Assembly (NCBI RefSeq): GCF_902833145.1
Contig: NZ_CADFEN010000004.1
Location: 1-64,000 of the forward strand
DNA from: Burkholderia sp. BCC0506
GTDB taxonomy: Bacteria; Pseudomonadota; Gammaproteobacteria; Burkholderiales; Burkholderiaceae
DNA length: 64,000 bases
Direction of reading: 5' to 3'
In this document: one piece after another, positions 24,210-47,295 of the stretch
Position numbering within the stretch: position 1 is the first letter of the stretch
Layout of the letters: each line of letters opens with the position of its first letter
Notes under the pieces: generated by a model
The model's input: only the letters and a program-made list of their open reading frames with translations
Told to the model about the DNA's origin: nothing
The model's database searches: none
Made by a program: the position numbers and the translations under genes

Positions 24210-25172
24210 ATGAACTTGTATCGCCTTTTTGCAGGCTGCCTGATGACGGCGTCGTTGGCGACGCCGGGTGACGCGGACGCAGCCTGCCAATTCATCAACA
24301 ACAAGACCGAGCTGATCGTCAATGTCGCGTTGAAGCCGCAATATCACGTGGCGCCGGGCACCGCTGTCGGCACTGTACTGGACGACGTGGGCGTCGCGAC
24401 CGATGCCGTTTCGTTCGCACGGTGCAGTGCGCCCGGGCGATCCAATCGGAGTGTTCAAGGCGGAGCCAGGGTCGGCAGCAGCGTGACGCCCTTTACGTTT
24501 GCGACCACGGTGCCGGGTATCGGGCTTGCATTTTATGACAAGCAGGCCGGCACGTCTGCGCCACGGTACTGGGGCGAAGGGGACGGCGGCGCTTGGACCG
24601 GCGACTGGGGATGGAGCAACTCGACGCTCGGCGCGAGGCTCGTCGTGACGGGGCCGGTCGGCGTCGGCGACGTCCCGGCCGGTTCCGTCTTTGCGCAGAT
24701 GAAACTGGATGGCCTGACGGTTGCGACGTTGAAGACCGTGGGTTTCAGAATCACGACGCCGGCCTGTTCGATGCCGAGCATCAGCGTGAACATGGTCAGA
24801 CCGACGACGAACCGCTTCACCGGCGTTGGGTCGACGGCTGGCGAGACGCCGTTTGATCTTCGGCTCAACGCGTGCCCGGCGGGCCGCACGGGCATCTACT
24901 ACCGGTTCGACCCGACGACGAAGATCGTGCCGGGGACCGGGGATTCGGTCGCGACGTTGAACGGGTCGTCGAGCGCGACGGGGATCGGTCTGCAATTGCT
25001 CGACGAAAGTGGGAAGCCGCTTGCGTTCGGGACGACGACGAAAATGACCGGCTATTCGGGCGCAGCCGGCTCCTACAGCGTGCCGTTTCGGGCGCGCTAC
25101 TACCAAACCGCCGCTGCGGTAACCGGCGGCAGCGCCAATGCATCGATCACCGTCACGATGAGCTATGACTAG
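24210..25172 (+). CDS. Two-domain fimbrial tip adhesin-like protein (copy 1)
   Basis: A 320-residue exported protein. A signal peptide (MNLYRLFAGCLMTASLATPG) is followed by a receptor-binding-like N-terminal domain with one early cysteine pair, then a pilin-type domain from about residue 190. The latter has CSMPSISVNMVRPTTNRFTG, TPFDLRLNACPAGRTGIYYR and an alternating hydrophobic end, PFRARYYQTAAAVTGGSANA then SITVTMSYD, typical of donor-strand exchanged fimbrial subunits. This is the FimH layout, so it should sit at a pilus tip after passing the usher. It is the first gene of the island, 226 bases before the first double-glycine peptide gene and about 11.6 kb from the pilin gene. Two similar proteins are encoded at 31713 and 41183. 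Confidence 0.75.
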   Translation: MNLYRLFAGCLMTASLATPGDADAACQFINNKTELIVNVALKPQYHVAPGTAVGTVLDDVGVATDAVSFARCSAPGRSNRSVQGGARVGSSVTPFTFATTVPGIGLAFYDKQAGTSAPRYWGEGDGGAWTGDWGWSNSTLGARLVVTGPVGVGDVPAGSVFAQMKLDGLTVATLKTVGFRITTPACSMPSISVNMVRPTTNRFTGVGSTAGETPFDLRLNACPAGRTGIYYRFDPTTKIVPGTGDSVATLNGSSSATGIGLQLLDESGKPLAFGTTTKMTGYSGAAGSYSVPFRARYYQTAAAVTGGSANASITVTMSYD

Positions 25173-25265
25173 CGGCGTCGCGCGTCATTCACGCGAAGGG
25201 GTTCCCACCTGCTCGAGTTTCGCGGTGCGAAAACGAATGCGTCCATTCATCTCGAAATAGAAGGA

Positions 25266-25303
25266 CGTGTCCGATTCGAATTAGCGTGCGTGTCCAATTG
25301 AAA
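25266..25303 (+). repeat. Tandem direct repeat upstream of the first precursor peptide gene
   Basis: CGTGTCCGATTCGAA (25266-25280) is followed by CGTGTCCAATTGAAA (25289-25303), 23 bases from start to start, about two helical turns. It lies 96 bases before the peptide gene at 25399, a position suited to a response-regulator binding site. The function is inferred. Confidence 0.4.
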
Positions 25304-25398
25304 TGGATCGGCACGAACGTAACATTCAAACGTCGTCGTCAATGCCGCGGCGGCGGATTTAAGAAATTCGGATTTGGTGATTTTTTCAGGTGAAAACG

Positions 25399-25698: not shown

Positions 25699-25862
25699 AT
25701 TCAGTATTACAGATAAAAGATCGATGCCGGACGGGGATGGCTTCCGACGGCGCGACCGCATCCGCACCGGATTTTTCCGGCGGAATCCCGAATCGATTCT
25801 GGGCCATGCCGAACTGCAGCATCGTGCCGCCTCGAATCGGACCTTTGCTACCTGGACTTTCA

Positions 25863-27356
25863 ATGCCGTCGATAGTACTCGCCGCGACGATCTCCGTCGA
25901 TCGATCGCGGAAAGCACACCTTGCGGGTGCCGTGCCGCGCAGCTGGACGGCGCGCGCCGGGCGATGCGTGCGGCCGGCCGGCGGTGCGACGCGGCCGCGC
26001 GGCGCGTCGCTCGTCGGGATCCTGCTGTTGTTTGTGTCGTCGGCCCATGCGACGGATCTCGCTGATGCGGTGAATGCCGCGCGCGGGTTCGACGCCGGGT
26101 TCGCCGCGGCGCACGACGCGCAGCTCGCCGGCCGTGAAAAGCGCTGGCAAGGGCTGGCCGGTTTGCTGCCGCGCGCCCAACTCGACGGCGCCTATACGAA
26201 GCAAGACCAGCCGACGGCCGCCTATGCGGCGGCCGTGCGCCGGCACAACGTGACGGCGAGCATCGTGCAGCCGCTGTTCGATGTGACGCGATTCGCGCAG
26301 TTCCGGCGCGGCAGCGCACTTGCCGACGAAGCCGATGTCGAGTTTACGAAGGCAGGCCAGACGTTGATCTCGACGGTCGCCGACGCCTATTTCGACGTGC
26401 TGCACGCCCGCGAGGTGTTGCAGGCGGTCGAGGCCGCGCGAAAGACGTTTCAGGCGCAGTTCGACCGGGCCCGCGCGGCGCTGCAGGTCGGCGACGGCAT
26501 CTTGACCGATGTCGACGAAGCACGGGCCAATCTCGATGACGCGCTCGCGCGCAAGGTCGGCACGCAGAACGATCTCGAAGTCGCGCGCGGCACGTTTCGC
26601 CGCCTGACGGGCCTCGACGCCGACACGATCGACCCGGTCGAATGGCGTTGCGTGCCGGACACGATGCCGTTCGATCTGCGGGCCGCGATGGACGAGGCGG
26701 CTCGAGAAAATCTCGACGTCCGGATCGCCGAGGAACGACTCGATCAATCGAAGGCGGACGTCGTGGCGGCGACCGGTGCGCACCTGCCGCTCGTCAGTCT
26801 TCAGGCGACCTACGGGACGAACTGGAGCCGCGGGGCGAACGAGAACGTGCTGGACAACGTTTTCGGCACGACGTCGAAGACGCGTTCCACGACGGTCGGC
26901 GTGACGGTCACGATTCCACTGTTCGCCGGTGGCGGGCAATTGTCGGCGTCTCGCGAAGCGTATCGCCGCCGGGACCAGTCCCGCGATGCAGTGGAGGATG
27001 CGCGGCGTAAGGCGCGCGAAGCGGCGCGCGCCTCGTATCTCGGCATCGTGAACGGTCTCGCGATGATGCGCGCGCGCGAGCGCGCCGTGGCATCGGCAGA
27101 CAGCAAAGTGAAATCGACCCGGTACGGTCGCGACGTGGGGTTGCGCACGCAAATCGATGAACTCAATGCACAGCAGCGGTACTTCGAGGCGCTTCGCGAT
27201 GTCGCGGATGCCCGATATCGCTATCTGCGGGCCCGCATCCAGTTGTCCGCGGCGCTCGGCACGCTCAGCGACGCCGACGTCGCGTCGTTGGCCTGCCGGG
27301 GAGGCGCCATCCCGTCGCCGGCTGCGGCGCCGGCTTCGCGCGGAGCGCGCACATGA
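25863..27356 (+). CDS. TolC-family outer-membrane factor of a type I secretion system
   Basis: A 497-residue protein with the TolC/OprM architecture: a signal peptide whose hydrophobic core is SLVGILLLFVSSAHA (about residues 49-64), then two similar halves of coiled-coil helices and beta strands. Signs are LADAVNAARGFDAGFAAAHD, AQLDGAYTKQ, the long helical AYFDVLHAREVLQAVEAARK, and in the second half LVSLQATYGTNW and TVTIPLFAGGGQLSASREAY. The signal peptide is preceded by about 45 arginine-rich residues from the ATG at 25863, so a downstream GTG (25932) could be the real start. Its stop overlaps the adaptor start by 4 bases. It would form the outer-membrane exit duct for the peptides. Confidence 0.85.
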   Translation: MPSIVLAATISVDRSRKAHLAGAVPRSWTARAGRCVRPAGGATRPRGASLVGILLLFVSSAHATDLADAVNAARGFDAGFAAAHDAQLAGREKRWQGLAGLLPRAQLDGAYTKQDQPTAAYAAAVRRHNVTASIVQPLFDVTRFAQFRRGSALADEADVEFTKAGQTLISTVADAYFDVLHAREVLQAVEAARKTFQAQFDRARAALQVGDGILTDVDEARANLDDALARKVGTQNDLEVARGTFRRLTGLDADTIDPVEWRCVPDTMPFDLRAAMDEAARENLDVRIAEERLDQSKADVVAATGAHLPLVSLQATYGTNWSRGANENVLDNVFGTTSKTRSTTVGVTVTIPLFAGGGQLSASREAYRRRDQSRDAVEDARRKAREAARASYLGIVNGLAMMRARERAVASADSKVKSTRYGRDVGLRTQIDELNAQQRYFEALRDVADARYRYLRARIQLSAALGTLSDADVASLACRGGAIPSPAAAPASRGART

Positions 27357-28612
27357 CCGATCTCCTGTTTCGCGACGAAGCCCTCGACGCAACCAAGCAC
27401 AAGCTGATGGGCACCGTCAGTCTGTATTCGCCCCCGTCGCGCTGGATCACGATCGGCGTTGCCACGACGCTCACGCTCGCGTTCGTCGCGTTCATCGTGT
27501 TCGGCAGTTACACGAAACGCGAGCGCGTGGCCGGTCAGTTGCTGCCTGCCAAGGGGCTTCTGACGGTTGCGCCGCCGATGACGGGCACGGTAATCGACAC
27601 GCGCGTGCACGAAGGTCAGCAGGTCGAAGCCGGGGCAGAGCTGATGACGGTCTCCGGCGAGGTGGCGAGCGAGCTGGGCAGCACGCGCGAGATGGTCGGC
27701 CGGCAACTCGCATACCAGCGCTCGCGACTTCAGGCCGATCTCGAGAGCCAGCTTCGATTGAGCGAAGAGACGCGGCGTGGCCTCGTCGCGCGGAGCAATG
27801 CGCTGGCCGGGCAGAGGGTCCAGATCGGCCTGGAACGCACGCAGCGCCTGCGTCAGGTGGATCTTGCGACGAGCCAGCTCGACAAGCTGAAGTCGATGCG
27901 CGCACAGGGCTACGCATCCAACAGCCAGGTCGAGCAGCAGGAAGCCGCGCTGCTCGACGCGCAGGCACGGTTGCAGGATCTCGCACGGCAGCGGCTCGAC
28001 GTCGAACAGCAGATGGACCAGTGCCGCCAGCAGCTTCGGGAGCTTCCGCTCAATACGCGCAACCAGCAGAGCGCCATCGAGCGCAAGCTCGCCGAGCTCG
28101 ACCAGTCGATCGCCGAAAACGAGGCACGCCGGGTCGTCGTCCTGCGTGCGCCGCAGCCCGGTGTCGTGGCCGCGCTGCTTGCGAAGCCAGGGCAGGCCGT
28201 CAATGCAGGGCAGTCGGTGGTGTCGATGCTGCCGGTCAGCGCCGGTCTCGAAGCGCAGCTGATGGTGCCGAGCCGCGCGATCGGCTTCGTGCGGCCGGGC
28301 GCGCGCGTGGTGCTGCGCTACGACGCCTATCCGTTCCAGAAATTCGGCCAGCAGTTCGGCCGGGTGACGGAGGTGTCCCGCACCGCGCTGACGCCGCAGG
28401 AGGCGGCAACCCTCACCGGCCGTACCGACGTCCGGGAGCAGTTGTACCGCGTCACCGTCGCGCTCGATCGGCAGGACGTGATCGCGTACGGCAAGCGCGA
28501 AGCGCTGCGACCCGGCATGGCGCTCGAAGCCGACGTGCTGATCGACACGCGCAGGCTGATCGAGTGGGTGCTCGAGCCGCTGTACGCGCTCGGGCGCCGC
28601 GCATCGGCATGA
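27353..28612 (+). CDS. HlyD-family membrane fusion protein (CvaA-like)
   Basis: A 419-residue adaptor linking inner-membrane transporter and outer-membrane factor. It begins MTDLLFRDEALDATKHKLMG, as CvaA-type adaptors do, then one membrane helix (about 33-53), a lipoyl-type half motif (VAPPMTGTVIDTRVHEGQQV), a long coiled-coil hairpin (about 105-255), the second lipoyl half (APQPGVVAALLAKPGQAVNA), and a beta-barrel domain ending at ALRPGMALEADVLIDTRRLI. The ATG overlaps the stop of the preceding outer-membrane gene (ATGA), indicating coupled translation, and the ABC transporter gene follows after 39 bases. Length and order match the colicin V adaptor family. Confidence 0.9.
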   Translation: MTDLLFRDEALDATKHKLMGTVSLYSPPSRWITIGVATTLTLAFVAFIVFGSYTKRERVAGQLLPAKGLLTVAPPMTGTVIDTRVHEGQQVEAGAELMTVSGEVASELGSTREMVGRQLAYQRSRLQADLESQLRLSEETRRGLVARSNALAGQRVQIGLERTQRLRQVDLATSQLDKLKSMRAQGYASNSQVEQQEAALLDAQARLQDLARQRLDVEQQMDQCRQQLRELPLNTRNQQSAIERKLAELDQSIAENEARRVVVLRAPQPGVVAALLAKPGQAVNAGQSVVSMLPVSAGLEAQLMVPSRAIGFVRPGARVVLRYDAYPFQKFGQQFGRVTEVSRTALTPQEAATLTGRTDVREQLYRVTVALDRQDVIAYGKREALRPGMALEADVLIDTRRLIEWVLEPLYALGRRASA

Positions 28613-28651: not shown

Positions 28652-30796
28652 ATGATGAAATGGCTTGATGCATTGCACTTCGGCTGGCGGCGACGCCTGC
28701 CGATGCTGTTGCAAACCCAGGCGGCCGAGTGCGGGTTGGCGTGCGTTGGCATGGTCGCAGCCTACTTCGGCTACGACATCGATCTAGTGAGCCTGCGACG
28801 TCGCTTCAGCCCATCGCTGAAAGGCACGACGCTCAACGACGTGATGGGCATCGCGTATCGGCTCGGGCTCGCGTCGCGCGCGCTGCGGCTCGATCTCGAC
28901 GAGCTCGGCAAGCTTCGCCGCCCGTGCATCCTGCACTGGGACATGAATCATTTCGTCGTGTTGAAGTCGGTGTCGCGCGGCAGGATCACGATCCACGATC
29001 CCGCACGCGGCATACGGGACGTACCGATCGCCGACGCGTCCCGGCACTTTACCGGCGTGGCGCTCGAGATCATGCCGTCGCCATCGTTCAAAACGGCGCA
29101 GGTTCGCGAGTCGATCTCGATGTCGGGCCTCGTCGGCAGCGTGACGGGAATCCGCTCGACGTTGACGCAGGTCCTGCTGCTGTCTGCGGTGCTCGAAGTG
29201 TTCGGTGTCGTGACGCCGTTCTACATGCAATGGGTGATGGACCAGGTGCTCGTATCGGCGGATGCCGACCTGCTCACGTTGCTCGGCACCGGCTTCCTGC
29301 TTGTCGTGGTGTTCCAGAGCGCGGTGACCGCGCTACGCTCGTGGGTCGTCACGTGGTTCTCCAGCCTGCTCGGCGTGCAGTGGACGGCCAATGTCTGCGC
29401 GCACCTGTTCAAGCTCCCGCTCGCGTATTTCGAGCAGCGGCACATCGGCGACGTCGTATCCCGGTTCGGCGCGATTCACACGATCCAGGGCACCCTCACC
29501 ACGCAGTTCGTCGGCGCGCTGCTAGATGGAGTGATGGCGACGATCACGCTGGCGATGCTGTTCGTCTACAGCGCGACATTGACGTGGCTGGTGCTGGGGC
29601 TGTTCGCGGCCTATGGCGTGATCCGGTGGATTGCATACCGGCCGTTCAAGCAGGCGAACGAGGAGCAGATCGTGTACGACGCACGCGCGCAATCGAACCT
29701 GCTCGAGTCGATCCGCGGCGTGCAGGCGATCAAGCTCGCGAACCGGCAGGAGGCGCGTGTCGCCACCTATGCGAATGCCGTGGTCGAGACCGCCAACAGG
29801 CATGTCGTCGTCCAGCGCCTGTCGATCGGGTTTTCGACGGTGCAGGGCTTGATTGCCGGCGCGGGCCGGGTCGTGCTCGTCTGGCTGGCGGCGCGGCAGG
29901 TACTCGCCGGCCAGTTTTCGGCGGGGATGCTCGTCGCATTCGTCAGCTTCGCGGATCAGTTCATGTCGCGTGGCGCGGGCCTGATCGGCACGGTCATCGA
30001 TTTCCGGATGTTGCGACTGCATGGCGAGCGGCTTGCCGACATCGTGTTGACCGACACCGAGAGCGACATGGAGTCGTCGGCGGGCATTCGCTTGCCGGAT
30101 GCGGACGCGCCGGCAATCGACGTTCGCGGCATCAGCTTTCGCTATGCGGAGACGGAGCCGTGGGTCCTGGACAATTGTTCGTTCTCGATCGCGGCCGGCG
30201 AGTCGGTCGCGATCGCCGGGCCGTCGGGACAAGGCAAAACGACGATGGCGAAGATCCTGCTCGGCCTGCTCGTGCCCGAGCGCGGCACCGTGACGGTGGA
30301 CGGCATCGATATCCGCAAATTGGGATTGCGTGCCTATCGCGAGCGGATCGGCAGCGTGATGCAGGACGACATTCTGTTCGCAGGGTCGGTGGCCGACAAC
30401 ATCTGCTTCTTCGATGCCCAGCCGGATCACGCACGCATCGAGGAGGCCGCGCGGCTCGCGCAGATTCATGACGACATCGTTGCGATGCCGATGGGTTACC
30501 AGAGCCTGGTCGGCGACATGGGGTCGTCGCTGTCCGGGGGGCAATGCCAGCGTGTTCTGCTAGCGCGCGCGTTCTACCGACGCCCGTCGATTCTGGTGCT
30601 CGACGAGGCCACCAGCCATCTCGACGTGGCGTGCGAGCGGCTGATCAACGACGCGGTGAAGGGAATGCGCATCACGCGGATCATCATCGCGCACCGGCCC
30701 GAAACCATCCGCAGCGCGGATCGCGTCATCGTGCTCGAGCGCGGAAGAGCGCACGAAACGGAACCGCAGGAGGCCGGCGTAGCGGCTGTCGTCTAG
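28652..30796 (+). CDS. Peptidase-containing ABC transporter (CvaB-like bacteriocin exporter)
   Basis: A 714-residue inner-membrane transporter that would cut double-glycine leaders and export the peptides with ATP. Residues 1-135 are a C39 peptidase: oxyanion Gln21 and catalytic Cys27 in QTQAAECGLAC, His100 in DMNHFVVL and Asp116 in IHDPARG. Six membrane helices follow (about 160-440). The ATPase domain has Walker A GPSGQGKT, signature LSGGQCQR (Cys where Lys or Arg is usual), Walker B ILVLDEATSHLD and the H-loop IIAHRP. The start has GGAG upstream. All catalytic residues are intact, so a working processing-exporter is predicted. Confidence 0.93.
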   Translation: MMKWLDALHFGWRRRLPMLLQTQAAECGLACVGMVAAYFGYDIDLVSLRRRFSPSLKGTTLNDVMGIAYRLGLASRALRLDLDELGKLRRPCILHWDMNHFVVLKSVSRGRITIHDPARGIRDVPIADASRHFTGVALEIMPSPSFKTAQVRESISMSGLVGSVTGIRSTLTQVLLLSAVLEVFGVVTPFYMQWVMDQVLVSADADLLTLLGTGFLLVVVFQSAVTALRSWVVTWFSSLLGVQWTANVCAHLFKLPLAYFEQRHIGDVVSRFGAIHTIQGTLTTQFVGALLDGVMATITLAMLFVYSATLTWLVLGLFAAYGVIRWIAYRPFKQANEEQIVYDARAQSNLLESIRGVQAIKLANRQEARVATYANAVVETANRHVVVQRLSIGFSTVQGLIAGAGRVVLVWLAARQVLAGQFSAGMLVAFVSFADQFMSRGAGLIGTVIDFRMLRLHGERLADIVLTDTESDMESSAGIRLPDADAPAIDVRGISFRYAETEPWVLDNCSFSIAAGESVAIAGPSGQGKTTMAKILLGLLVPERGTVTVDGIDIRKLGLRAYRERIGSVMQDDILFAGSVADNICFFDAQPDHARIEEAARLAQIHDDIVAMPMGYQSLVGDMGSSLSGGQCQRVLLARAFYRRPSILVLDEATSHLDVACERLINDAVKGMRITRIIIAHRPETIRSADRVIVLERGRAHETEPQEAGVAAVV

Positions 30797-30894: not shown

Positions 30895-31209
30895 ATGCGT
30901 GAGTTGACCATGATGGAAATCGGCGAAGTGAGCGGCGGCGGCTTCTTCAGCCGGTGCGGCGCGTCCGTGGTCGGCGGTGTCGGCGGAGCGATCGCCGGTG
31001 TCTGGAAGGGGGGGGTCAGCGGCGGCAGCACCGGTGGCTACCTGGGGCTCGGCATTCTCAGTGCGGGTGTGGGCGCAATCGCCGGTGGTGTGCTTGGCAT
31101 CGTCGGCGGCGCCTTGTACGGTGTGATCAACGACGCGACGCAGACCGTCAAGGTATTCAATTCGATCATGGAAAACCTGTTCGACATGAATACGCCGGCG
31201 CCGAAATGA
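30895..31209 (+). CDS. Double-glycine leader precursor peptide 2, glycine-zipper microcin-like
   Basis: A 104-residue precursor with leader MRELTMMEIGEVSGGG, very close to the colicin V leader pattern (MRxLTxxEIxxVSGG). Cleavage after the GG would release a mature peptide dominated by glycine zippers: GASVVGGVGGAIAGVWKGGV, a GGSTGG turn, then GLGILSAGVGAIAGGVLGIV, ending in a polar amphipathic tail (FNSIMENLFDMNTPAPK). This is the make-up of pore-forming class II microcins and two-peptide bacteriocins. One cysteine near the mature N-terminus (SRCGAS) could be oxidised or modified. GGAG lies eight bases before the ATG. No DNA-coded immunity protein is adjacent. Confidence 0.82.
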   Translation: MRELTMMEIGEVSGGGFFSRCGASVVGGVGGAIAGVWKGGVSGGSTGGYLGLGILSAGVGAIAGGVLGIVGGALYGVINDATQTVKVFNSIMENLFDMNTPAPK

Positions 31210-33942: not shown

Positions 33943-34313
33943 CCGCGCCGGCCGGCCATCCACCCCGTGATGGCAGAAGTGCCTTCGGATCAGCGCGGCG
34001 ACCATCTGGTCGCGGCACGAGTCCGCTACGCGGGCGCCGCGCGGTCGTCACTACGAAATGCAAACAGAGCCTGAGACGCGTCATATTAACGGATGGTAAA
34101 TGCAATTATATGTCTTATATAAAAATATAATTAACATCGATATGCTTTTCACCAGTAATTCGGCTTCGCGGTTTGTTCGACGCACGTTGACAGGTGTTCT
34201 CGCTGAAGCGAGCGCCCGCCCGCACCGCATGATGGTGTAGTCATCGACAGATATCGTTCGCCGCACAAGAGCCTTGACTTATCCGGGAAGTGCTTATCAC
34301 ACAAGGAAATCAA
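33943..34313. other. AT-rich intergenic region
   Basis: About 370 bases with a conspicuously AT-rich core (34080-34145) containing a perfect TATAAT (34126-34131). Nothing gene-like is seen. Such islands of AT in GC-rich DNA commonly bind H-NS-like proteins and carry promoters of acquired genes. Confidence 0.45.
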
Positions 34314-37478: not shown

Positions 37479-37545
37479 CGGGTGCCTGCCGATGCGCTTA
37501 CGGTGGTCTTGTTTATTCGTAGTCCATATAAAAAGAAGGGAGGAA

Positions 37546-38372: not shown

Positions 38373-41006
38373 GTGAAGAAGAAATACAACGGCCCGCACG
38401 CGGAAATCGGGCCTCGGCTCAAGCCGATATGCGCGCTGGTTCTCTCGATCGTCGCCGGCTGGCAAACGGATGCGCGTGCGGCCTCGCACGAAGGCGCCCG
38501 GCCGCTCCAGGTCGCGCAGACGGAAATCGCGCAAGTCGAATTCGAGGGCGGATTTCTGAATAATGGCTCGGGCGCGATCGACGTGTCGCGATATTCGCGC
38601 GGCAACGTGGTGCGTGCCGGCCTCTACAGCCCGGACGTCTATGTCGACGGTAACTGGGCAGGACGGCTCGAGGTGCCGTTCAAGGCCGCGGAGGCTACGC
38701 CGGACGCCCAGCCATGCTTCGACAAGGCGCTGCTGGACCGCATCGGTGTCGATCTGAGCCGCCTGCCGCCGGATGTTCACGCGCTGCTGGACCGGGAAGG
38801 CGCGTGCGTGCGCATCGGTCAGGCGATTCCGGAGGCCTCCGTCAGCTTCGACTTCAACGAGCTCCGGCTCGACCTGAGCATCCCGCAGATATCGATGCGC
38901 CGCCACGCGCGCGGCTACGTCAGCCCCGATCAGTGGAGCGAGGGTGTGCCCGTCGCGATGGTCGGCTATAACGCGAACGTCTACAACTCGCGCACGAGCG
39001 CTGGGCACGGCAGCACGCAGGGCTACGTCGGCATCGATGGCGGATTCAACTACCGGCGCTGGCATTTCCGGCACGGCGGGTCGTTCAACTGGGACGACCG
39101 CGGCCGTCGGCGCTACGAGAACGTCGCGACCTACGTGCAGCGCGATCTGGCGTCATGGTCGTCGCAGCTCGTGATCGGCGATACGTATACGTCCGGTGAC
39201 CTGTTCGACTCGACGTCGTTTCGCGGCGTGCGGATATACACCGACGACCGGATGCTGCCGGAGTCGCAGCGCGGCTATGCGCCCGTCGTGCGTGGCGTCG
39301 CGAACACCAACGCGAAAGTGACGATTTCGCAGAACGGCGTGAAGCTGTACGAGACGACGGTCGCACCGGGCGGGTTCGTGATCGACGATTTGTATCCGAC
39401 CGGCTATGGGGGCGACCTGAACGTCGTCGTCACGGAAGCGGACGGATCGACGCATTCGTTCTCCGTGCCGTATGCGGCCGTGCCGATGTCGTTGCGTCCC
39501 GGGCAGAACCGCTACAGTTTCACCGCAGGGGCGGTGCGCAACCTGCCGAATACGACACCAGTGTTCACGCAGGCGACCTGGCAGCGCGGTTTCACGAACG
39601 GGCTGACAGGCTATGGAGGCGCGACGGCCGCGCAAGGCTACCTTGCAGCAATGGCCGGGGCGGTGCTGAATACCGCGTGGGGTGCAATCGGCGTCGACGT
39701 CACTCATGCGACGACCAGGATCTCGAACGAGCGCACGTATTCGGGGCAGAGCTTTCGCGTGAGCTATGCGAAGACGGTCGAAGCCACAGGGACGAACGTC
39801 GCGATCGCCGCATATCGCTATTCGACCAACGGCTATTTCGGCCTGAACGACGCGATGGCCGCGCGGCATCGTGCGAAGTCCAGCAGGACTTCGGGCACGC
39901 TGTACCGGCAGCGCAACCGCGCGTCGCTGACCGCGAGCCAGCAGCTCGGCGAAAAGGGCGGCAGCCTCAGCGTGACGGCGTCGACGGCGACCTACTGGAA
40001 TCGCCGTGGATCGGACGTCGATTTCACGGTCGGCTATAGCAATGCGTTCCGGAACGTGTCGTACAACGTGTCGGCGACGCGGCAGCGCGATGCCTGGGGG
40101 CAGGCCAGCACGTTGGTCTACGTCGGGCTGTCGATTCCGATCGGCCGCACCCGGCCGGCGACGCTGTCGACCAGCTTCAATCGCGACACGCGCGGGACGA
40201 CGCAGATCTCGACCAGCCTGAGCGGCTCGGCCGGTGTCGACAGCAACCTGTCGTACGGCGTGAACGTGAACCGCAGCAGCGGCGTGGGCAGCGCGCAGAC
40301 CAGCGGCGGCGCGAACGTCTCGTATCGTGGCGCGCGCACGGAAGTGAGCGGCAGTGTGGGCGCGAGCGCGGACTACCAGCAGTTCTCGATTGGGGCGCGC
40401 GGCGCGATCGTCGCGCACCGCGGCGGGCTCACGCTTTCGCAACCGCTGTCGGAGACTTTCGCGATCGTCCAGGCGAAGCACGCGGAAGGCGCGCGGGTGA
40501 CCAACGCGTCGGGCGTGAGGGTTGACCGGAACGGCTATGCAATCGTGCCGTATCTGACGCCGTTCTCGATGAACGACGTGTCGCTGGATCCCAAGGGGCT
40601 GTCCACGGACGTCGAACTGAAGGAAACGAGCCAGCGCGTCGCGCCGCTGGCAGGCGCCGTCCCGTTGTTGGTGTTCAAGACCGAGTACGGGCGATCGGCG
40701 GTGATTCGCATGCGGCAGGCGGACGGCTCGCCGGTGCCGTTCGGCGCGGTGGTCACCGATCAGGACGGCAAGGACATCGGTGTGGTCGGGCAAGCTGGCA
40801 AGCTGCTGGCGCGCGGCTTGGCGGAGAAGGGCGAACTGAACGTGGAGTGGGAAAAGGGAAATGTCAAGGCCGTGTGCCGGATTTCATATTCGCTGCCGGT
40901 GCGTACGCAGCAGTCACTGCGTAGCTTCGAATTGCCATGCGTGGATAGGGGCATGGCGAATGCTGCACCGGCCCCGTCAGATCGCGAGCCACTGCACGCC
41001 GGCTAG
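38373..41006 (+). CDS. Outer-membrane fimbrial usher (FimD/PapC family)
   Basis: An 877-residue outer-membrane pore and assembly platform. Signal peptide to about 36, N-terminal domain (VEFEGGFLNNGSGAIDVSRY), a 24-strand barrel with the middle domain (RGYAPVVRGVANTNAKVTIS, GYGGDLNVVVTEADGSTHSF), and C-terminal domains after VYVGLSIPIG, with the typical YRTRxDRNG-like element VRVDRNGYAIVPYLTPF and GAVVTDQDGKDIGVVGQAGK. The final pair of cysteines (VCRISYS, ELPCVD) is conserved in ushers. Start is a GTG at 38373 after GGGGAG. It follows the chaperone by 86 bases. Confidence 0.93.
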   Translation: MKKKYNGPHAEIGPRLKPICALVLSIVAGWQTDARAASHEGARPLQVAQTEIAQVEFEGGFLNNGSGAIDVSRYSRGNVVRAGLYSPDVYVDGNWAGRLEVPFKAAEATPDAQPCFDKALLDRIGVDLSRLPPDVHALLDREGACVRIGQAIPEASVSFDFNELRLDLSIPQISMRRHARGYVSPDQWSEGVPVAMVGYNANVYNSRTSAGHGSTQGYVGIDGGFNYRRWHFRHGGSFNWDDRGRRRYENVATYVQRDLASWSSQLVIGDTYTSGDLFDSTSFRGVRIYTDDRMLPESQRGYAPVVRGVANTNAKVTISQNGVKLYETTVAPGGFVIDDLYPTGYGGDLNVVVTEADGSTHSFSVPYAAVPMSLRPGQNRYSFTAGAVRNLPNTTPVFTQATWQRGFTNGLTGYGGATAAQGYLAAMAGAVLNTAWGAIGVDVTHATTRISNERTYSGQSFRVSYAKTVEATGTNVAIAAYRYSTNGYFGLNDAMAARHRAKSSRTSGTLYRQRNRASLTASQQLGEKGGSLSVTASTATYWNRRGSDVDFTVGYSNAFRNVSYNVSATRQRDAWGQASTLVYVGLSIPIGRTRPATLSTSFNRDTRGTTQISTSLSGSAGVDSNLSYGVNVNRSSGVGSAQTSGGANVSYRGARTEVSGSVGASADYQQFSIGARGAIVAHRGGLTLSQPLSETFAIVQAKHAEGARVTNASGVRVDRNGYAIVPYLTPFSMNDVSLDPKGLSTDVELKETSQRVAPLAGAVPLLVFKTEYGRSAVIRMRQADGSPVPFGAVVTDQDGKDIGVVGQAGKLLARGLAEKGELNVEWEKGNVKAVCRISYSLPVRTQQSLRSFELPCVDRGMANAAPAPSDREPLHAG

Positions 41007-41182: not shown

Positions 41183-42181
41183 ATGAAAGCGCTTTTGAAA
41201 CTGATTTTCATTTCGGCAGGTTTTGCTGCCAACGATGTATCGGCGGCTTGCAAGTCGTTGACCAGCAATGGACTGAACTACTACGTTGCGATGGTGTCAG
41301 GCTTCAGTCCACCTGAATTCGATCCTGATTCAGTTCCGGTCGGTGGTGTCATATACGAAGCTACCGGCGCGCCGATCTTCAACAATAAGGCAAGTTCACG
41401 CGCAACGGTCAGCTGTTCGCCCGGTGTGTATACTTACGTTGCTGGAGCGGGCGTTTCCGATTCAAGCGGTATTTATCCGACGGCCATTCCGAATATCGGG
41501 ATTCGCATACTTGCGGGCCCCAATCGAACCGCAGCGCCATTCAAGGGCGACTATGTCGTCAATACTTCTTGGGATGAGAATTACCCGATTACAGTTCAGT
41601 TGATCAAAACCGGAGACATTACAGCCGGAGGCGTGCTCAACGGCGCATACGCCGCCTATCGAGCGGGCAGCGTGAATGGCGATCTGCTTGTCGAGTATAG
41701 ATTCACATCGCCCGTCGTCGTCCAGCCGCGCGTGCCGACCTGCAAGGTGGCAACGCCGGAGGTCACGGTACCGATGGGCGCTGTGGCCACCGTGCAGTTC
41801 AAGGGGGTCGGAACGACCACGGTTTCTCGCATGTTCGACATCGTGTTGAATTGCTCGGGCGGAAACCTCGGGACTTCGACCAACGCGTATGTGACGCTCA
41901 CCGATGCGACCGTGCCGACCAATACGTCGACGGTACTGTCATTGAGGAAAGGCTCCACCGCCTCCGGCGTCGGTATGCAGATACGGCGCAGCGGCACGCT
42001 CGTCGGCTTCGGGCCCGATTCAGCCGCCGTTGGCAATATCAACCAGTGGCATGCGGGTACGATCACACAAGGGCAGTCGGCGCTTACCATTCCGTTGAGC
42101 GTCAGCTATGTGCAGACCGGCGCGACCGTTACACCGGGAAGCGCGAATGCGCGCGCAACATTCACATTGAGCTACCAATAG
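41183..42181 (+). CDS. Two-domain fimbrial tip adhesin-like protein (copy 3)
   Basis: A 332-residue exported protein. Signal peptide MKALLKLIFISAGFAANDVS, then an N-terminal receptor domain with cysteines in AACKSLTSNG and VSCSPGVYTY, and from about residue 180 the pilin domain: PTCKVATPEVTVPMGAVATV, FDIVLNCSGGNLG, SGVGMQIRRSGTLVGFG and the end IPLSVSYVQTGATVTPGSAN, RATFTLSYQ. It is the normal tip protein of the pilus operon, 177 bases after the usher. Its N-terminal domain differs from copies 1 and 2 while the C-terminal halves are alike, so the three could alternate at the tip. Confidence 0.82.
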   Translation: MKALLKLIFISAGFAANDVSAACKSLTSNGLNYYVAMVSGFSPPEFDPDSVPVGGVIYEATGAPIFNNKASSRATVSCSPGVYTYVAGAGVSDSSGIYPTAIPNIGIRILAGPNRTAAPFKGDYVVNTSWDENYPITVQLIKTGDITAGGVLNGAYAAYRAGSVNGDLLVEYRFTSPVVVQPRVPTCKVATPEVTVPMGAVATVQFKGVGTTTVSRMFDIVLNCSGGNLGTSTNAYVTLTDATVPTNTSTVLSLRKGSTASGVGMQIRRSGTLVGFGPDSAAVGNINQWHAGTITQGQSALTIPLSVSYVQTGATVTPGSANARATFTLSYQ

Positions 42182-42443
42182 GCGCCCGAGCGGCCGCGTT
42201 ACGCACATTTCCGCATAACGGGCACGCGCATTTGCGCGGCCGTGCCTTTACGGAATCGCCGTATTTCCACGACGACGAATGAATTGCCGGTCTTTACTGA
42301 TCTGAATTTCGCGAGACAATCGAAACACAACAGCCTTCAGGAAAACGATCTCAATTGTTATTGAGATACAATGCCTCCGCCGACTTGGCATGAACGACAA
42401 GCTGTCGTCGCGAGGCGCCAGCTGTCCAATTTGCGAACGCACG

Positions 42444-43100
42444 ATGGACGAGCTATCAGTACGTGTGATCGTGGCGGACGACCATCCGGTTTCGGGCCAC
42501 GGTATCGCGCAGATCCTGACCGAGATTCCGACGATCGACGTGGCGGCGATCGTGTCGAGCACCTCCGCGCTGATCGAGAGGCTCGCCACGACGCCGTGTG
42601 ACGTTCTCGTGCTCGATTACGTGATGCCTGCCGGTACCCACGGTGACGGTCAGTCGATCATCGAGTATCTGCAGCGCCACCATCCGGCACTGCGCATCGT
42701 GACGGTGACGATGCTCAATTCGCCGACGGTGTTCCGCGCGCTTCGGTCGCTCGGCGTCCAGTGCATCGTAAGCAAGTCCGATGCAATGTCCCATCTGGTG
42801 ACGGCCGCCCATATCGCGTACGGCAATGGCCGGTACCTGTCGCCGACGATTTCCGGATTGCTCGACCGTGCCGATGGCAATGCGGCGCGCACGAGCGCGT
42901 TGTCGCGGCGCGAATCCGAAATCGTCCGGCTGTTTCGCGAAGGCTACAAGGTGACGGAAATTGCCGAGAAACTCCATCGCAGCAAGAAGACCATCAGCGC
43001 GCAGAAGCTCGCCGCGATGCGCAAGCTCGGCATTACGCGCGACGCCGACCTGATCCGGTACGACGAGGGGATCGGCCGCGACGATGAACCGGGCGAATGA
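42444..43100 (+). CDS. RcsB/EvgA-like response regulator
   Basis: A 218-residue regulator: receiver with acidic pair in VIVADDHPVSGHG, phosphorylated Asp58 in VLVLDYVMPAG, Lys in CIVSKSD, then the LuxR-type helix-turn-helix (LSRRESEIVRLFREGYKVTE, IAEKLHRSKKTISAQKLAAM, RKLGITRDADLI). The start at 42444 (MDELSVRVIVADD) is chosen because it gives the same length and gap-free alignment with the Asn58 paralogue at 36024; an ATG at 42390 would add 18 unusual residues with CPIC. Its stop overlaps the kinase start by 4 bases, so it is the cognate regulator of that kinase. Confidence 0.88.
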   Translation: MDELSVRVIVADDHPVSGHGIAQILTEIPTIDVAAIVSSTSALIERLATTPCDVLVLDYVMPAGTHGDGQSIIEYLQRHHPALRIVTVTMLNSPTVFRALRSLGVQCIVSKSDAMSHLVTAAHIAYGNGRYLSPTISGLLDRADGNAARTSALSRRESEIVRLFREGYKVTEIAEKLHRSKKTISAQKLAAMRKLGITRDADLIRYDEGIGRDDEPGE

Positions 43101-46100
43101 CCCGGCGCGCGATGCCCGTGTTCCGTCAATGGCTCCACCGGTACAGGCGCTCGATGCGCCGGATGGAGTTCGATCCGGAGTGGATGCGCGCGTATCAGCG
43201 CGTGCTGCTGACGGTCGGCGGGGCCGCGCTCGGCGTATTCATCGTATTGTGTGCGGCCGCGGTTGTCCTGCTGGAGGTCAGCGATTTCCATGCGTCGATG
43301 CATGCGCGCTTTCTGACGGAGAAGGCGCGTCTGCTTGTCGGCATGTCGGAGAGTACGACACTGCTGAAGCGCGTCACGTCGGCTGCCGAGCGAGCGTGGG
43401 ATCCCGGCCGCCGACCGTCGCCGGAAGTCGAACGGGCTTTTGCCGTGAGAGGGAGGCTGCTGGAGCGCGATTCCTCCGATCCGAGCCTGGTCTATGCGGC
43501 CCATGCCATTCCGGATCCCGCTCATCGTTACCGCGACTATCTGCCATTGCTTGCCTTGTCCGAAAAGCTGCTCGGAAATGCCGTTGGCCGCAAGCATACG
43601 ACGATGGGACCGGATCAGGTCTATCTGATCGGGCTCGATGGGCATTTCGTCGATGCACTATTGCGCGTGGCTCCGGATTCGCCGCTGCCGCACGACAAGC
43701 TGGACAACTTGGCCGTCGTGTTGCCGCGGGCGTGGCCCGATGTCGCGGCGTTGGTGCGGGAAGTTTCGCGGCATCCCGGGCGAGCCGTGGACACGGTGAT
43801 CTGGCTGCCGCCGCGCGAGGATCCCGTCACGTCGGACATGCTGTTGCGTTGTGCGAGCTGGGTGTTCGACGAGCAGGGGCGACCGATCGCATTGCTGGTC
43901 CATTCGATCGCGCCGTTCGATCTTCCGGACGAAGGGGGCGACGGGCGCGCGGACGCCGGATTTGCCGTCGTGGATGCGGCGCAGCAGATCGTTGCGGTTT
44001 CGCCCGGCGTGCGTCGTGCCGGTTGGCACGACGCGGCGCGCGGACTGCCGGACCATCTTGCCGACGGGCTTGAGCACCGCATGAGCGACGGGCGGTTCGT
44101 CGTTCGCGGGGTGCTACCGGGAAGCGACTGGTTTCTCGTCAATGTGTATTCGATGCGAGCCGTACTCGAAGGCGTGTCGCAGCGTCTCGCCGTGACCGCC
44201 GCAGCGGCGCTGCTCGGGCTCGCGATTCTGGCCGGTTGCCTGATCGTTCTCGATCGCCGGATCCTGACGCCCTCCTATCGGCGCGCGGCGCGTCTGCAGG
44301 AAAGCGAACAGTTGAATCGAACGCTGATCCGCACGGCCCCGGTCGGTCTCGCATTGATCGACGAGGCGACCGGCGACGTATTGACATCCAATCAGGCGAT
44401 GACGCGCCACGAGCGCGGAGCGGAGCCCGGGGCGCTGACGTTCCGAATCCGGGAGACGTTCGCGCACATTCGGACGAGAGATGGCATGGCGCGTCCCGAC
44501 GGGATCCCCGCGCAAGAGATTACGCTCGAGCGGTCTGACGACGCAGGCGGCGACGCGCATTTTCTCGTCAATTTCGTGCGGGTCAAATATCGAGGCAGGC
44601 AAGCGTTGCTCGGCACCGTCGTCGACATCACGGCGAACAAGCTGATCGAGCAGTCGCTCGACGCCGCGCGGCAAGCCGCCGATCAGGCCAATCGCGCGAA
44701 ATCGGTGTTCCTCGCGACCATGAGCCACGAAATCCGCACGCCGCTCAATGCAGTCATCGGCAATCTCGAACTGATGAAGCGCGGCACATTGTCCGAAGTG
44801 CAGCGTCGGCGGCTCGCGCTGGCCGATTCGTCGTCGACGGCGCTGCTTCATATCGTCAACGACGTACTGGACCTGTCGAAGGTCGAGGCCGGCCAATTGC
44901 ACGTCGATGCCGTGCCGTTCGATTGCGTGACGTTGTTGCGCGAGGTCGCGGAATCGTTTCGTCCGCTCGCGGAGAAGAAGGGCCTGAAGTTCCGCGCCGA
45001 CATCGAGGACGGCCTCGCGCCGTACCGGATCGGCGACCCGATCAGGATCAGGCAGGTCGTGTCGAATCTCGTCGGCAACGCGATCAAGTTCACCCGAGCC
45101 GGGAGCGTGAGCGTGCTGGCTCGCGGATATCGCGCAGATGGTGCTGAACGCGTCGAAGTTCGGGTCGTCGACACCGGAATCGGCATTTCCGCGGCCGCGC
45201 AGGCGGCGATCTTCGAGCTCTACGAACAGGCCGACGACACCATTCATCGTGAATACGGCGGAACCGGTCTCGGGCTTGCGCTGTGCCAGCGACTGGTCGA
45301 TGCGATGTCGGGAACGATCGCGGTCGACAGCGAGCCGCGCGTGGGCAGCACGTTTCGTGTCGACATCCCGCTGCCGGTCACGACGGACGCGCCGGCCGAC
45401 GAGCACGACGGCGACGGGGACAACGTCGGCGCGCTGCTCGGCCCGAACGGTGCGCGATTGCGTGTGCTAGCCGTCGAAGATCATCCGGCGACGCGCATGA
45501 TGCTGGCCGATCAGTTCGGCGAACTGGGCGTTGACGCGGTGTTCGCGGAACGCGGCGAGCACGCGCTCGAGCACGTGCGTCACACGCATCCCGACGTCGT
45601 CCTGACTGACCTTGGCCTTCCGGACATGGACGGCTGGACGCTGGCCCGTTCGATACGCGAGCAGCATGCCGCTCTCCCGGTCGTCGCGATGACGGCACAC
45701 GCGAGCGCCGAAGATGAAGTGCGCGCGACCCGCTCCGGAGTCCGCACACTGTTGCGAAAACCCGTGACGCTGCACGCACTGCAGCGCGCGCTCCGGCCGT
45801 ATGCGATTGCGTCGGGCGCCGGCGAGCGACCCGCACGGCAGCATGCCGATCGGCGTCCGGTGTCGGGAATGATGGCGGTTATGCGGCGGGTCACGCTGGA
45901 CTCGCTTGCCTCGATCGACCGCGCGTTGAGCACCGGCGACGCCGACACCATCGTGCGCGAATTCCACTTCCTGAGCGGCGGCTTCCTGTCAGCCGGGAGC
46001 GACGTGCTGTCCGAGCTGTGTTCCGGCCTGCAACAAGTCGTTCACGACGAAGGGATATCGGTCGTTGCCGAATTGTGGCCGGCCCTGCGTGACGAGATCG

Positions 46101-46135
46101 TCGGCGCGCTCGATCGGTTGCCATCCGAATCGTAA
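43097..46135 (+). CDS. Hybrid sensor histidine kinase with receiver and HPt-like domain
   Basis: A 1012-residue inner-membrane kinase. Membrane helix 1 at about 38-60, a periplasmic sensor region to about 365, helix 2 at about 375-395, a PAS-like segment (RTAPVGLALIDEATGDVLTS), HisKA with His544 in FLATMSHEIRTPLNAVIGN, the ATP domain (RQVVSNLVGNAIKFTRAGSV, VDTGIGIS, GGTGLGLALCQRLV), a receiver with Asp838 (VVLTDLGLPDMDGW), and a helical end with His957 in REFHFLSGGFLSAG, where an HPt histidine would be. This is an EvgS/BvgS-like phosphorelay. It starts in the stop of the regulator gene. No substrate-binding VFT domain is seen, so the signal differs from that of BvgS. Confidence 0.92.
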   Translation: MTRRAMPVFRQWLHRYRRSMRRMEFDPEWMRAYQRVLLTVGGAALGVFIVLCAAAVVLLEVSDFHASMHARFLTEKARLLVGMSESTTLLKRVTSAAERAWDPGRRPSPEVERAFAVRGRLLERDSSDPSLVYAAHAIPDPAHRYRDYLPLLALSEKLLGNAVGRKHTTMGPDQVYLIGLDGHFVDALLRVAPDSPLPHDKLDNLAVVLPRAWPDVAALVREVSRHPGRAVDTVIWLPPREDPVTSDMLLRCASWVFDEQGRPIALLVHSIAPFDLPDEGGDGRADAGFAVVDAAQQIVAVSPGVRRAGWHDAARGLPDHLADGLEHRMSDGRFVVRGVLPGSDWFLVNVYSMRAVLEGVSQRLAVTAAAALLGLAILAGCLIVLDRRILTPSYRRAARLQESEQLNRTLIRTAPVGLALIDEATGDVLTSNQAMTRHERGAEPGALTFRIRETFAHIRTRDGMARPDGIPAQEITLERSDDAGGDAHFLVNFVRVKYRGRQALLGTVVDITANKLIEQSLDAARQAADQANRAKSVFLATMSHEIRTPLNAVIGNLELMKRGTLSEVQRRRLALADSSSTALLHIVNDVLDLSKVEAGQLHVDAVPFDCVTLLREVAESFRPLAEKKGLKFRADIEDGLAPYRIGDPIRIRQVVSNLVGNAIKFTRAGSVSVLARGYRADGAERVEVRVVDTGIGISAAAQAAIFELYEQADDTIHREYGGTGLGLALCQRLVDAMSGTIAVDSEPRVGSTFRVDIPLPVTTDAPADEHDGDGDNVGALLGPNGARLRVLAVEDHPATRMMLADQFGELGVDAVFAERGEHALEHVRHTHPDVVLTDLGLPDMDGWTLARSIREQHAALPVVAMTAHASAEDEVRATRSGVRTLLRKPVTLHALQRALRPYAIASGAGERPARQHADRRPVSGMMAVMRRVTLDSLASIDRALSTGDADTIVREFHFLSGGFLSAGSDVLSELCSGLQQVVHDEGISVVAELWPALRDEIVGALDRLPSES

Positions 46136-46455
46136 GCCGCGGACGCGGCTAGCGCGTCCAGAGTCGCCGTTGCGCAGTGCCGGATTGCCGCGGCACGGCA
46201 GGGCAGGCGACTCACCATCTGCCGACGGTTCGCCGATACCGCGACGAGACTGGTCCTAACGTCGCTGGTTTATTGAAGCGTTCGTCTGATTGTGCTGCAC
46301 GAACGAGGACTTTTAGAATCGAAGCCGGGCAGTTTTTCCCGACACATTTCCATTGTGAACCGAGCGTGAGTCGATCGGCGGCATTTCGGATCGATTCTCG
46401 CCGGAGGGTGGGCTGCCTCGATTTTCCGGTATTCGATTTCTTGTCGCGGATCAAC
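46136..46455. other. Intergenic region after the kinase
   Basis: About 320 bases without a gene. A short stem AGCCGC-GGAC-GCGGCT (46135-46150) begins at the last base of the kinase stop codon and may end the transcript. The part after 46255 is more AT-rich and probably contains the promoter of the DUF1460 gene. Confidence 0.4.
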
Positions 46456-47295
46456 ATGAAGAAAAAAACCATTTCTGCGCTGCTGCTGGCCGTTCTGGCG
46501 GGATGCGGCGGCGACGGGGCCGATAGCACGCAGGCCGACGGGGCGGCGTTCTTTCCGCCATCGGGGTCGATCGCCGTCAAGATGGACGCCGCGTCGTCGG
46601 ATCGGCTCGATATGCTGCTCGCCGAGCGTGCCGCGCACCCACTGGACGACGCCGGGCAGGCGATCGACCGCATGTCGCGCGCACTGCTCGGCACGCCGTA
46701 TCGCGACGATACGCTGGTCGGTTCGCCGAGCGTGCCCGAGCAGCTTGTGGTCGATCTGCAGGGGATGGACTGCTTCACATTCGCGGATTACGTCGAAGCA
46801 CTGCGCAAGTCCACGACGAAAATGACGTTCATGCTGAACCTCATCGACACGCGTTATGTTGACGGCGAGGTCGCCTATTTGCGACGCAAGCATTTCTTTA
46901 CCGATTGGGCGTACCGGCCATTTCGCAACGTCGACGACGTCACGGCCCGCGTCAGCCCGCGTGCGGTGACGGTCCACAAGATGCTGAACCTTCGAAGCGA
47001 CGGCCGCGCGTACGTGGCCGGATTACCGGCCACGTACCGCGCGATCACATTCATTCCGGCTGCCTTCGTCGACGCCTACGTTGTGAATCAGCTTAAGACG
47101 GGCGACTACATCGGCATCTACGCGACGGCGGACGGGCTCGATGTCACGCACGTCGGCATCTTCGTGATGACCGATCGCGGGCCCATGCTGCGCAATGCGT
47201 CGTCGCTCGACATCAATCGCAAGGTCGTCGATTCGCCGTTCGTTGCGTATGTCGCGCACACGCCGGGCATCGTCGTACTGCGGCCGAAATCATGA
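46456..47295 (+). CDS. DUF1460 family lipoprotein (NlpC/P60-like wall amidase or peptidase)
   Basis: A 279-residue lipoprotein: MKKKTISALLLAVLAGCGGD carries the lipobox LAGC (Cys17). The DUF1460 core reads PYRDDTLVGSPSVPEQLVVD, GMDCFTFADYVEALRKS with the catalytic Cys106, THVGIFVMTDRGPMLRNAS with the catalytic His, and SPFVAYVAHTPGIVVLRPK. Members of this family cut peptidoglycan (amidase or gamma-D-Glu peptidase type). The start at 46456 is the only one giving the lipoprotein signal. It is the third wall-active protein of the island and its last intact gene before the debris at 47.4 kb. It could also be a general wall-recycling enzyme unrelated to the pilus. Confidence 0.82.
   Translation: MKKKTISALLLAVLAGCGGDGADSTQADGAAFFPPSGSIAVKMDAASSDRLDMLLAERAAHPLDDAGQAIDRMSRALLGTPYRDDTLVGSPSVPEQLVVDLQGMDCFTFADYVEALRKSTTKMTFMLNLIDTRYVDGEVAYLRRKHFFTDWAYRPFRNVDDVTARVSPRAVTVHKMLNLRSDGRAYVAGLPATYRAITFIPAAFVDAYVVNQLKTGDYIGIYATADGLDVTHVGIFVMTDRGPMLRNASSLDINRKVVDSPFVAYVAHTPGIVVLRPKS

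Follow-up and report, generated by a model that had tools for sequence, protein, structure and literature searches.

A conserved operon pairing a double-glycine peptide exporter with a chaperone-usher pilus, and a probable rearranged copy in Burkholderia sp. BCC0506

We analysed a 64,000-nt stretch of Burkholderia sp. BCC0506 (contig NZ_CADFEN010000004.1; the genome is labelled G000), here called the window, and in particular an island at 24.2–47.3 kb whose genes, all on the + strand, encode a peptide exporter, small double-glycine peptide precursors and a chaperone-usher pilus. The island appears to be a rearranged copy of a pilus-peptide module whose parts and gene order are conserved in Beta- and Gammaproteobacteria, in which exporter and pilus have been paired repeatedly and the peptide genes track the pilus. 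The arrangement and distribution of the genes make it very probable that the peptides and the pilus work together. Taken as a whole explanation, a pilus-coupled, surface-acting peptide system that probably serves contact-dependent antagonism has about an even chance of being correct; antagonism as the effect, proposed by analogy, falls somewhat below even.

The conserved order is OEP-HlyD-ABC-pepA-pepB-FimA-PapD-Usher-tip adhesin, mostly with a regulator gene in addition; OEP is a TolC-like outer-membrane factor, ABC the exporter with its C39 peptidase domain, and pepA and pepB the genes for two precursors. This order was found in Burkholderia sp. lig30, Andreprevotia, Mixta tenebrionis, Intestinirhabdus, Enterobacter, Erwinia oleae and Erwinia typographi. 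It was also found in Mixta theicola without a recognisable pepB and in Erwinia sp. ErVv1 with a broken pepA (no pepB was found at locus L043, and pepA is broken at L026), and in Erwinia endophytica the peptide-pilus half comes ahead of the exporter half. Within the genome of BCC0506 itself, an exporter search returned a copy at C12 with 84% identity and, at C2 and C3, two others with 53%. The C12 copy is an intact operon with every gene from OEP to tip adhesin in the conserved order and a regulator, and the C2 and C3 exporters had no usher in the 20 kb fetched. Given that this genome contains five ushers in 7.29 Mb, a random 20-kb stretch would include one with a chance of ~1.4%; both strong pepA loci of the genome have an usher less than 10 kb away, and their proximity is therefore not attributable to chance.

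For comparison among relatives, the best 80 of at least 574 exporter relatives were picked on exporter similarity alone. The exporter tree was reduced from 113 rows to 106 by removal of duplicates and to 73 by dropping 33 rows with flanks of <8 kb and no usher, L016, L033 and L072 being lost from the exporter clade for short flanks. Within these best 80 of at least 574, an usher was present within 13 kb of 20 of the 23 exporters in one fully supported clade and of 0 of 30 outside it; when the 8-kb flank rule was extended to linked rows, L019 fell out and the count in the clade became 19 of 22. The window exporter was not included in this first tree, having been treated as a copy of L001, which was itself dropped for short flanks; in a second tree it fell in the usher-linked clade. 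Separately, C39 exporters 48–49% identical to that of the window were observed in Aquimarina (Bacteroidota; L058, L073, L076, L077, L079 and L082) with no usher nearby.

Searches that started from the peptide gave a corresponding picture. With a profile of PepA (family A1), 17 genomes in a 299-genome Burkholderiaceae sample matched at 1e-3, with nine strong hits (<1e-29) in eight genomes. All eight strong loci with enough flank carry a pilus, including five that were not seeds of the profile (G211, G083, G110, G205 and G263); the contig of the ninth hit is 8.5 kb long and stops 335 bp past the peptide. The usher was absent from all 11 loci inspected for weak hits, which represent 12 of the 16 such hits (the other four are PepB of a strong locus and G117 C38, C5 and C9, which were left out). 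Among 392 genomes from the family of Erwinia oleae, 30 matched at 1e-10, and 15 of 20 non-seed loci, chosen from the head of the hit list, had an usher within 10 kb. These 20 loci, two of which are from one genome (G1126) and one of which (L163) is cut by a contig end, hold 23 of the 49 hits; five hits were seeds and 21 were left out, all from the weaker end except G691:C30. The background density of ushers was 35 in 37.5 Mb over seven genomes, or ~1.9% per 20 kb. The first-pass annotation had proposed that peptide export and pilus belong together, and their co-occurrence in relatives of both families bears this out.

The pairing is not confined to one kind of usher. In a tree of 74 ushers (eight duplicates removed), every row of a 25-row clade (Shimodaira–Hasegawa-like approximate likelihood-ratio test, SH-aLRT, 98) has pepA, an exporter or both at its locus or at a contiguous neighbour. 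The rows of this clade that carry no exporter label are L009 (exporter in the contiguous L010), L153 and L155 (exporter cut by the limits of the fetched stretch) and L152 (exporter elsewhere in the genome). Exporter-linked ushers occur in at least four further places of the tree, so that exporters are paired, in all, with ushers of at least five lineages. In a type found in Raoultella, Rahnella and Pantoea, a DcrB gene lies behind the exporter and is followed by pepA; in another, pepA lies between the tip gene and an HlyD-ABC pair from a different exporter clade; L019, L022 and L023 represent another, and Cys-containing double-glycine-like peptides were seen near L023 20401–20819, L022 18661 and L019 12092. 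The usher type of the window is a further one. The exporter label required 14 changes on the tree versus 23.8 for shuffles, with four rows uncorrected. These results suggest that pilus and peptide export have been joined repeatedly in evolution. In genome G1160 exporter and pilus are 3.4 Mb apart as measured on the contig (1.2 Mb if it is circular); pepA is still found ~0.6 kb upstream of FimA, and the exporter keeps another double-glycine peptide.

With regard to the window, the gene directly after pepB encodes a tip adhesin, FimP2, that is 51% identical to the tip protein of the conserved operon at L013. The FimA-PapD-Usher genes lie 4 kb further on and are of another usher lineage than the usual exporter partner; this usher type groups with those of B. 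cepacia LK29 and B. stagnalis, amid unlinked ushers. On the basis of the usher tree, we rejected the pilus of the window as the exporter's native partner; the usual type is that at C12. The simplest account would be that the native FimA-PapD-Usher set was lost and a second pilus operon arrived. The stretch at 34–36 kb is a low-GC patch (0.52–0.53) with apparent remnants of an IS3-type insertion sequence (IS), and the island is therefore composite. The initial description of the island as one system holds for the pairing of exporter, peptides and pilus, in a form that is rearranged with respect to the standard one and has a pilus outside the usual usher lineage. A further usher operon was noted ~49 kb beyond the end of the window (L200, G000:C4:108000–122000); its usher is the most identical to that of the window (58%), and a fragmentary M23 match lies ~4 kb off.

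Cdz of Caulobacter crescentus is a system of contact-dependent killing by the surface-bound glycine-zipper proteins CdzC and CdzD, with the exporter CdzAB and the immunity protein CdzI (PMC5380434). The criteria of the Cdz screen were a length of 60–151 residues, a leader ending in G[G/A/S], an uninterrupted glycine zipper and a type I exporter within ~10 kb (PMC5380434). The 17 members of family A1 have lengths of 101–114 aa, all inside this range, and their leaders end in G[G/A/S] with the exception of that of L017, which ends in GT (16 of 17). Mature PepA has a glycine content of 20–27%, each member has 9–17 overlapping GxxxG/A/S motifs, and each contains an uncharged, proline-free stretch of 27–47 residues that constitutes an uninterrupted glycine zipper. 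The exporter adjoins pepA in the canonical loci, with G1160 as the exception. An AlphaFold2 model of PepA consisted of two long helices with a mean predicted local distance difference test (pLDDT) score of 69; a Foldseek search with this model gave a best E value no lower than 4.8 and was uninformative. A third precursor gene of the window, pepC, was called from its leader and position, because no relative was detected among the fetched loci (best E value 0.055).

We propose that the module operates as follows. The adjacent RcsB-family regulators would probably switch it on. The C39-ABC/HlyD/TolC-like exporter would, from what is known of these families, cut the double-glycine leaders and secrete PepA, a glycine zipper predicted to form a two-helix hairpin, and PepB, a probable hydrophobic helix with a basic end, and the same operon would build a type-1-like chaperone-usher pilus tipped by an adhesin of two domains. 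PepA and PepB most likely stay at or near the surface of the producer, as CdzC and CdzD do, and may act there on the membranes of cells held by the pilus, which would amount to contact-dependent antagonism with its own grappling device. A more far-reaching version is that there exists a class of pilus in need of a second route, with a type I exporter loading glycine-zipper peptides on or around the pilus, a peptide-armed grip disrupting the neighbour's membrane, and exporter and usher lineages having converged on this arrangement repeatedly; we put this forward only tentatively.

Several observations weigh against such a system and need to be set beside it. In the interval between ABC and FimA at 18 canonical loci, no open reading frame (ORF) of at least 35 aa with at least two hydrophobic segments was detected on either strand; the exceptions were the peptide genes themselves and, within pepA of L025, a 57-aa ORF in another frame. 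The mean identity of mature PepA between beta and gamma loci was 43%, compared with 47% for FimA, 40% for PapD and 43% for the usher (the tip and PepB were lower, at 28% and 26%), and the ratio of nonsynonymous to synonymous substitution rates (dN/dS, Nei-Gojobori) for pepA was 0.07–0.56, being <1 in all five pairs of relatives; that for pepB was 0.10–1.16, <1 in four pairs and 1.16 in the fifth. PepA thus appears to evolve as a structural subunit would, not as a diversifying toxin. No Pfam family, those of bacteriocins included, matched the PepA or PepB precursors above its cut-off: the nearest PepA profile was DUF5862 (PF19180), which 12 of 17 members matched at 0.1 (best for L017, 32.0 versus a cut-off of 33.3 bits), and the best scores were 20.9 bits for Bacteriocin_IIc (L010; cut-off 27.1) and, of those shown, 19.3 bits for MccV (L160; cut-off 27). 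NCBIfam likewise gave no match for the six precursors tried. Three exporters of the linked clade have no nearby usher (L014, L021 and L030), and at L015 and L148 exporter and pili were present and pepA was not found. Because loci of the L019/L022/L023 type seem to carry Cys-containing peptides, exporter and pilus are not paired exclusively where glycine zippers are encoded. Only one of 398 genomes in a sample of the phylum matched pepA at 1e-6, namely that of BCC0506 itself, and two of 394 in a sample of the order, including a seed genome, matched at 1e-20; the module is therefore patchy. The window's own pilus, being of another usher lineage, counts on the same side. It is because of the 19 of 22 in the even-handed exporter count and of the exporter-pilus loci without pepA that we place our confidence in joint action a step lower than we otherwise would.

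An immunity protein could be encoded outside the operon. Six orphan relatives of pepA were inspected (L125, L126, L156, L157, L164 and L169). At L157, of Erwinia endophytica, a 134-aa ORF with three hydrophobic segments (10992–11393) lies ~0.8 kb from the orphan pepA on the other strand and is a possible immunity candidate. The neighbouring ORFs at L169 (238 aa, seven segments) and L126 (282 aa, two segments) look unrelated. A DcrB gene (PF08786) was detected in 12 of the 51 exporter and/or pilus loci scanned, among them some exporter loci without a pilus, and all five genes tested were confirmed by Pfam (Table 1); this family includes the Eag chaperones of type VI secretion systems, which serve hydrophobic effectors. 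At Mixta-type loci (L018 18360, L043 18208 and L154 15894), we also observed an ORF of ~1040–1070 aa after the tip gene that is autotransporter-like by eye.

RcsB was the closest solved structure for both response regulators of the window (RR1 and RR2), and both are full-length relatives. The phospho-acceptor Asp is replaced by Asn or Glu in eight of 20 aligned regulators (RR1 and those of L020, L024, L025, L027, L028, L032 and L034), which in this respect differ from the RcsB family and, for this reason, are not ordinary phospho-relay outputs. In the Rcs phosphorelay, the hybrid kinase RcsC and the Hpt protein RcsD are separate proteins, whereas HisKA, HATPase, REC and Hpt are present in one chain in the window. 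The Rcs-like relay suggested at first pass is thus matched by two RcsB-like response regulators and less so by the kinase.

The main rival explanation is structural: after export the peptides would become part of the cell surface or associate with the pilus, for instance as an amyloid-like or membrane-anchored layer, and would stabilise the pilus, make sister cells clump or support biofilm without killing. A conserved core in which no immunity gene was seen would fit such a role, as would a PepA that is as conserved as FimA, PapD and the usher and has a dN/dS of <1, the retention of pepA by the pilus where the exporter is elsewhere (G1160), and the association of CdzC itself with surface fibrils (PMC5380434). 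It is harder to reconcile with the resemblance of PepA to Cdz-like and class II bacteriocin precursors, with the DcrB-type genes, which suggest the handling of membrane-active cargo, and with the small three-segment ORF near the orphan pepA of L157, which could be an immunity gene. Moreover, to our knowledge, none of the chaperone-usher pili that have been studied well depends on a type I exporter. We therefore favour contact-dependent antagonism and regard a structural role as possible although rather unlikely.

Two further explanations were considered. A diffusible class II microcin might merely have hitch-hiked beside fimbriae in a mobile island, as could be suspected from the CvaAB-like exporter, from leaders of the microcin V type, from the plasmid locations and IS remnants, and from the orphan peptides elsewhere in some genomes. 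We consider this improbable, in that linkage is far above background and recurs with at least five usher lineages, gene spacing is operon-like, pepA stays by the pilus when parted from the exporter, and the operon showed no gene for immunity. The peptides might also be signals: once exported, they would be sensed and would govern expression of the pilus by way of the adjacent RcsB-like regulators. Most canonical loci have a regulator gene, and some have a hybrid kinase. Such peptides would, however, be long (~50–100 aa past the leader) and of a membrane type, kinase genes are found at few loci, and the altered phospho-acceptors of eight of 20 regulators do not suit such a circuit, which makes signalling the least credible of these explanations and very improbable in itself. 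Contact-dependent antagonism, with the peptides and the pilus acting together, remains the explanation that we prefer.

The module is also present on plasmids. It was found with canonical gene order intact on pRF23, a conjugative plasmid of B. ubonensis, where two regulators and a kinase composed of SBP_bac_3, HisKA, HATPase, REC and Hpt domains are encoded nearby, and in rearranged form on pPag1 of Pantoea vagans C9-1, which is typed as mobilizable. A tblastn search of plasmids with pepA of L027 gave no match at 1e-5, although the pRF23 and pPag1 loci, which were reached through the exporter, hold pepA relatives. The peptide genes of both plasmids are annotated as hypothetical proteins, and our analysis offers a candidate role for such genes beside fimbrial operons, for example on these two plasmids.

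The features of the window island are listed in Table 1. The parts named in the first-pass annotation, that is, a C39-ABC/HlyD/TolC-like exporter, three precursors, pilin-chaperone-usher genes, three fimbrial adhesin-like genes, wall proteins, regulators and a kinase, were all found, and its common leader of the three precursors was likewise evident, with pepA, pepB and pepC all having an MRE leader that ends in GG or GA. The pilus set comprises a pilin, a PapD-type chaperone, an usher with N and C domains and a two-domain tip adhesin. OEP and HlyD overlap (27353/27356), and the gaps are 98 bp for ABC-pepA, 66 bp for pepA-pepB and 143 bp for pepB-fimP2; because of these short gaps and of the OEP/HlyD and M23/P198 overlaps, the exporter, pepA, pepB, fimP2, M23 and P198 genes look, from their coordinates, like a single transcription unit. 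The wall enzymes, which had been counted as part of the system, did not hold up: queries with the M23, M15 and PF07313 proteins of the window gave no match at 1e-6 in the stretches examined of other exporter-pilus loci, and these proteins were rejected as members of the unit because they are not kept there. Relatives of the PF07313 protein are present in nine of 65 genomes of the genus, BCC0506 included, of which only G205 also has a strong pepA locus, with PF07313 on another contig; relatives of the M23 protein (identity up to 58%) occur, among the matches listed, in at least 64 of the 65, again including BCC0506. Outside the island, positions 670–751 (−) of the window match the Rfam family of the P9 Pseudomonas small RNA (58.6 bits).

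Table 1. Features of the window island and DcrB genes at related loci (positions in the window unless a locus is named).
Feature	Position	Strand	Evidence and remarks
fimP1, fimbrial adhesin-like	24210..25172	+	PF00419 1.9e-14, weak MrkD domain; likely start 24210, ORF opens 24129
pepC, double-glycine-type (GA) precursor, 99 aa	25399..25698	+	leader MRELSNGDVRRISGAG
OEP, TolC-like outer-membrane factor	25700..27356	+	PF02321 4.7e-47; start unsure, ORF opens 25497
HlyD-family adaptor, CvaA-like	27353..28612	+	PF13437 (HlyD_3) 7.7e-17
ABC exporter, N-terminal C39 peptidase, CvaB-like	28652..30796	+	PF03412 (Peptidase_C39) 9.1e-32, PF00664 (ABC_membrane), PF00005 (ABC_tran); tree placement
pepA, 104-aa glycine-zipper double-glycine precursor	30895..31209	+	leader MRELTMMEIGEVSGG; family A1
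pepB, double-glycine precursor, hydrophobic C-terminus and basic tail	31276..31569	+	leader MREINAAERASVSGG; family A2
fimP2, two-domain tip adhesin	31713..32738	+	PF00419 1.6e-17; FimH/LpfD/CupB6-like fold
M23 (LytM/NlpD-like) exported protein	32837..33349	+	PF01551 8.1e-29
P198	33346..33942	+	no Pfam match; overlaps M23 stop
M15 D-alanyl-D-alanine carboxypeptidase-like protein	34290..35141	+	PF13539 (Peptidase_M15_4) 7.5e-19
Probable IS3-type transposase remnants, low-GC patch	35264..35835	+	six-frame translation judged by eye; GC
RR1, RcsB-like regulator	36024..36680	+	RcsB 7.3e-28; Asn replaces phospho-acceptor Asp (alignment)
FimA-like major pilin	36843..37427	+	PF16970 3.7e-19
PapD-like periplasmic chaperone	37492..38286	+	PF00345 1.7e-43; PapD_N/C
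Outer-membrane usher	38373..41006	+	PF00577 5.5e-168; PapC_N-Usher-PapC_C; lineage from usher tree
fimP3, fimbrial adhesin-like, MrkD-like domain	41186..42181	+	PF00419 7.1e-22, PF22003 4.1e-9; ORF opens 41090
RR2, RcsB-like response regulator	42390..43100	+	RcsB 4.9e-41; GerE/Response_reg; intact phospho-Asp
Hybrid histidine kinase HisKA-HATPase-REC-Hpt	43097..46135	+	Pfam domains; receiver vs RcsC 1.4e-23
PF07313 (DUF1460/AmiA-like) lipoprotein	46450..47295	+	PF07313 2e-73
DcrB gene, L020	18068-18490		PF08786
DcrB gene, L025	18120-18542		PF08786
DcrB gene, L027	17696-18136		PF08786
DcrB gene, L146	16171-16599		PF08786
DcrB gene, L147	14212-14646		PF08786

Among known systems, class II microcins such as microcin V and H47 share with the module a C39 ABC exporter with an HlyD adaptor and a double-glycine leader. 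Known members encode an immunity protein and rely on the housekeeping TolC, and PepA and PepB fall below every Pfam cut-off, that of MccV included; even DUF5862, the profile nearest to PepA, stays below its curated cut-off in each member shown. FimA, PapD, an usher with PapC_N and PapC_C and a tip protein of FimH/LpfD/CupB6-like architecture are as in type 1-like pili, to which the operon adds a peptide exporter and its peptides. By title or abstract, none of the open-access papers listed in our searches describes this operon, although the cluster list of the Cdz paper may include these loci; in the text of a paper on contact-dependent killing in Proteus (PMC8386478), the words fimbria, usher and pilus do not occur.

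The closest parallel is Cdz, with which the module shares a type I exporter, a pair of small double-glycine peptides encoded side by side and, at least in PepA, a glycine zipper (PMC5380434). It differs in having a chaperone-usher pilus and tip adhesin in the operon, an outer-membrane factor at the locus and no immunity gene seen in the operon, whereas the cdz locus of Caulobacter is without adhesion genes and has CdzI (PMC5380434). Burkholderia cepacia, Klebsiella pneumoniae, Serratia marcescens and Erwinia are named there as carriers of Cdz-like clusters, and many Cdz-like regions are said to hold adhesion genes, for example for thin aggregative fimbriae (PMC5380434). That remark is the nearest prior statement that we found; the chaperone-usher operon, the peptide families and the repeated pairing did not appear among the papers that our searches listed. 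Killing by Cdz depends on contact between cells, and the authors who discovered it did not settle which adhesion system is responsible (PMC5380434). An operon that holds both the peptides and a pilus with a tip adhesin makes that question directly testable.

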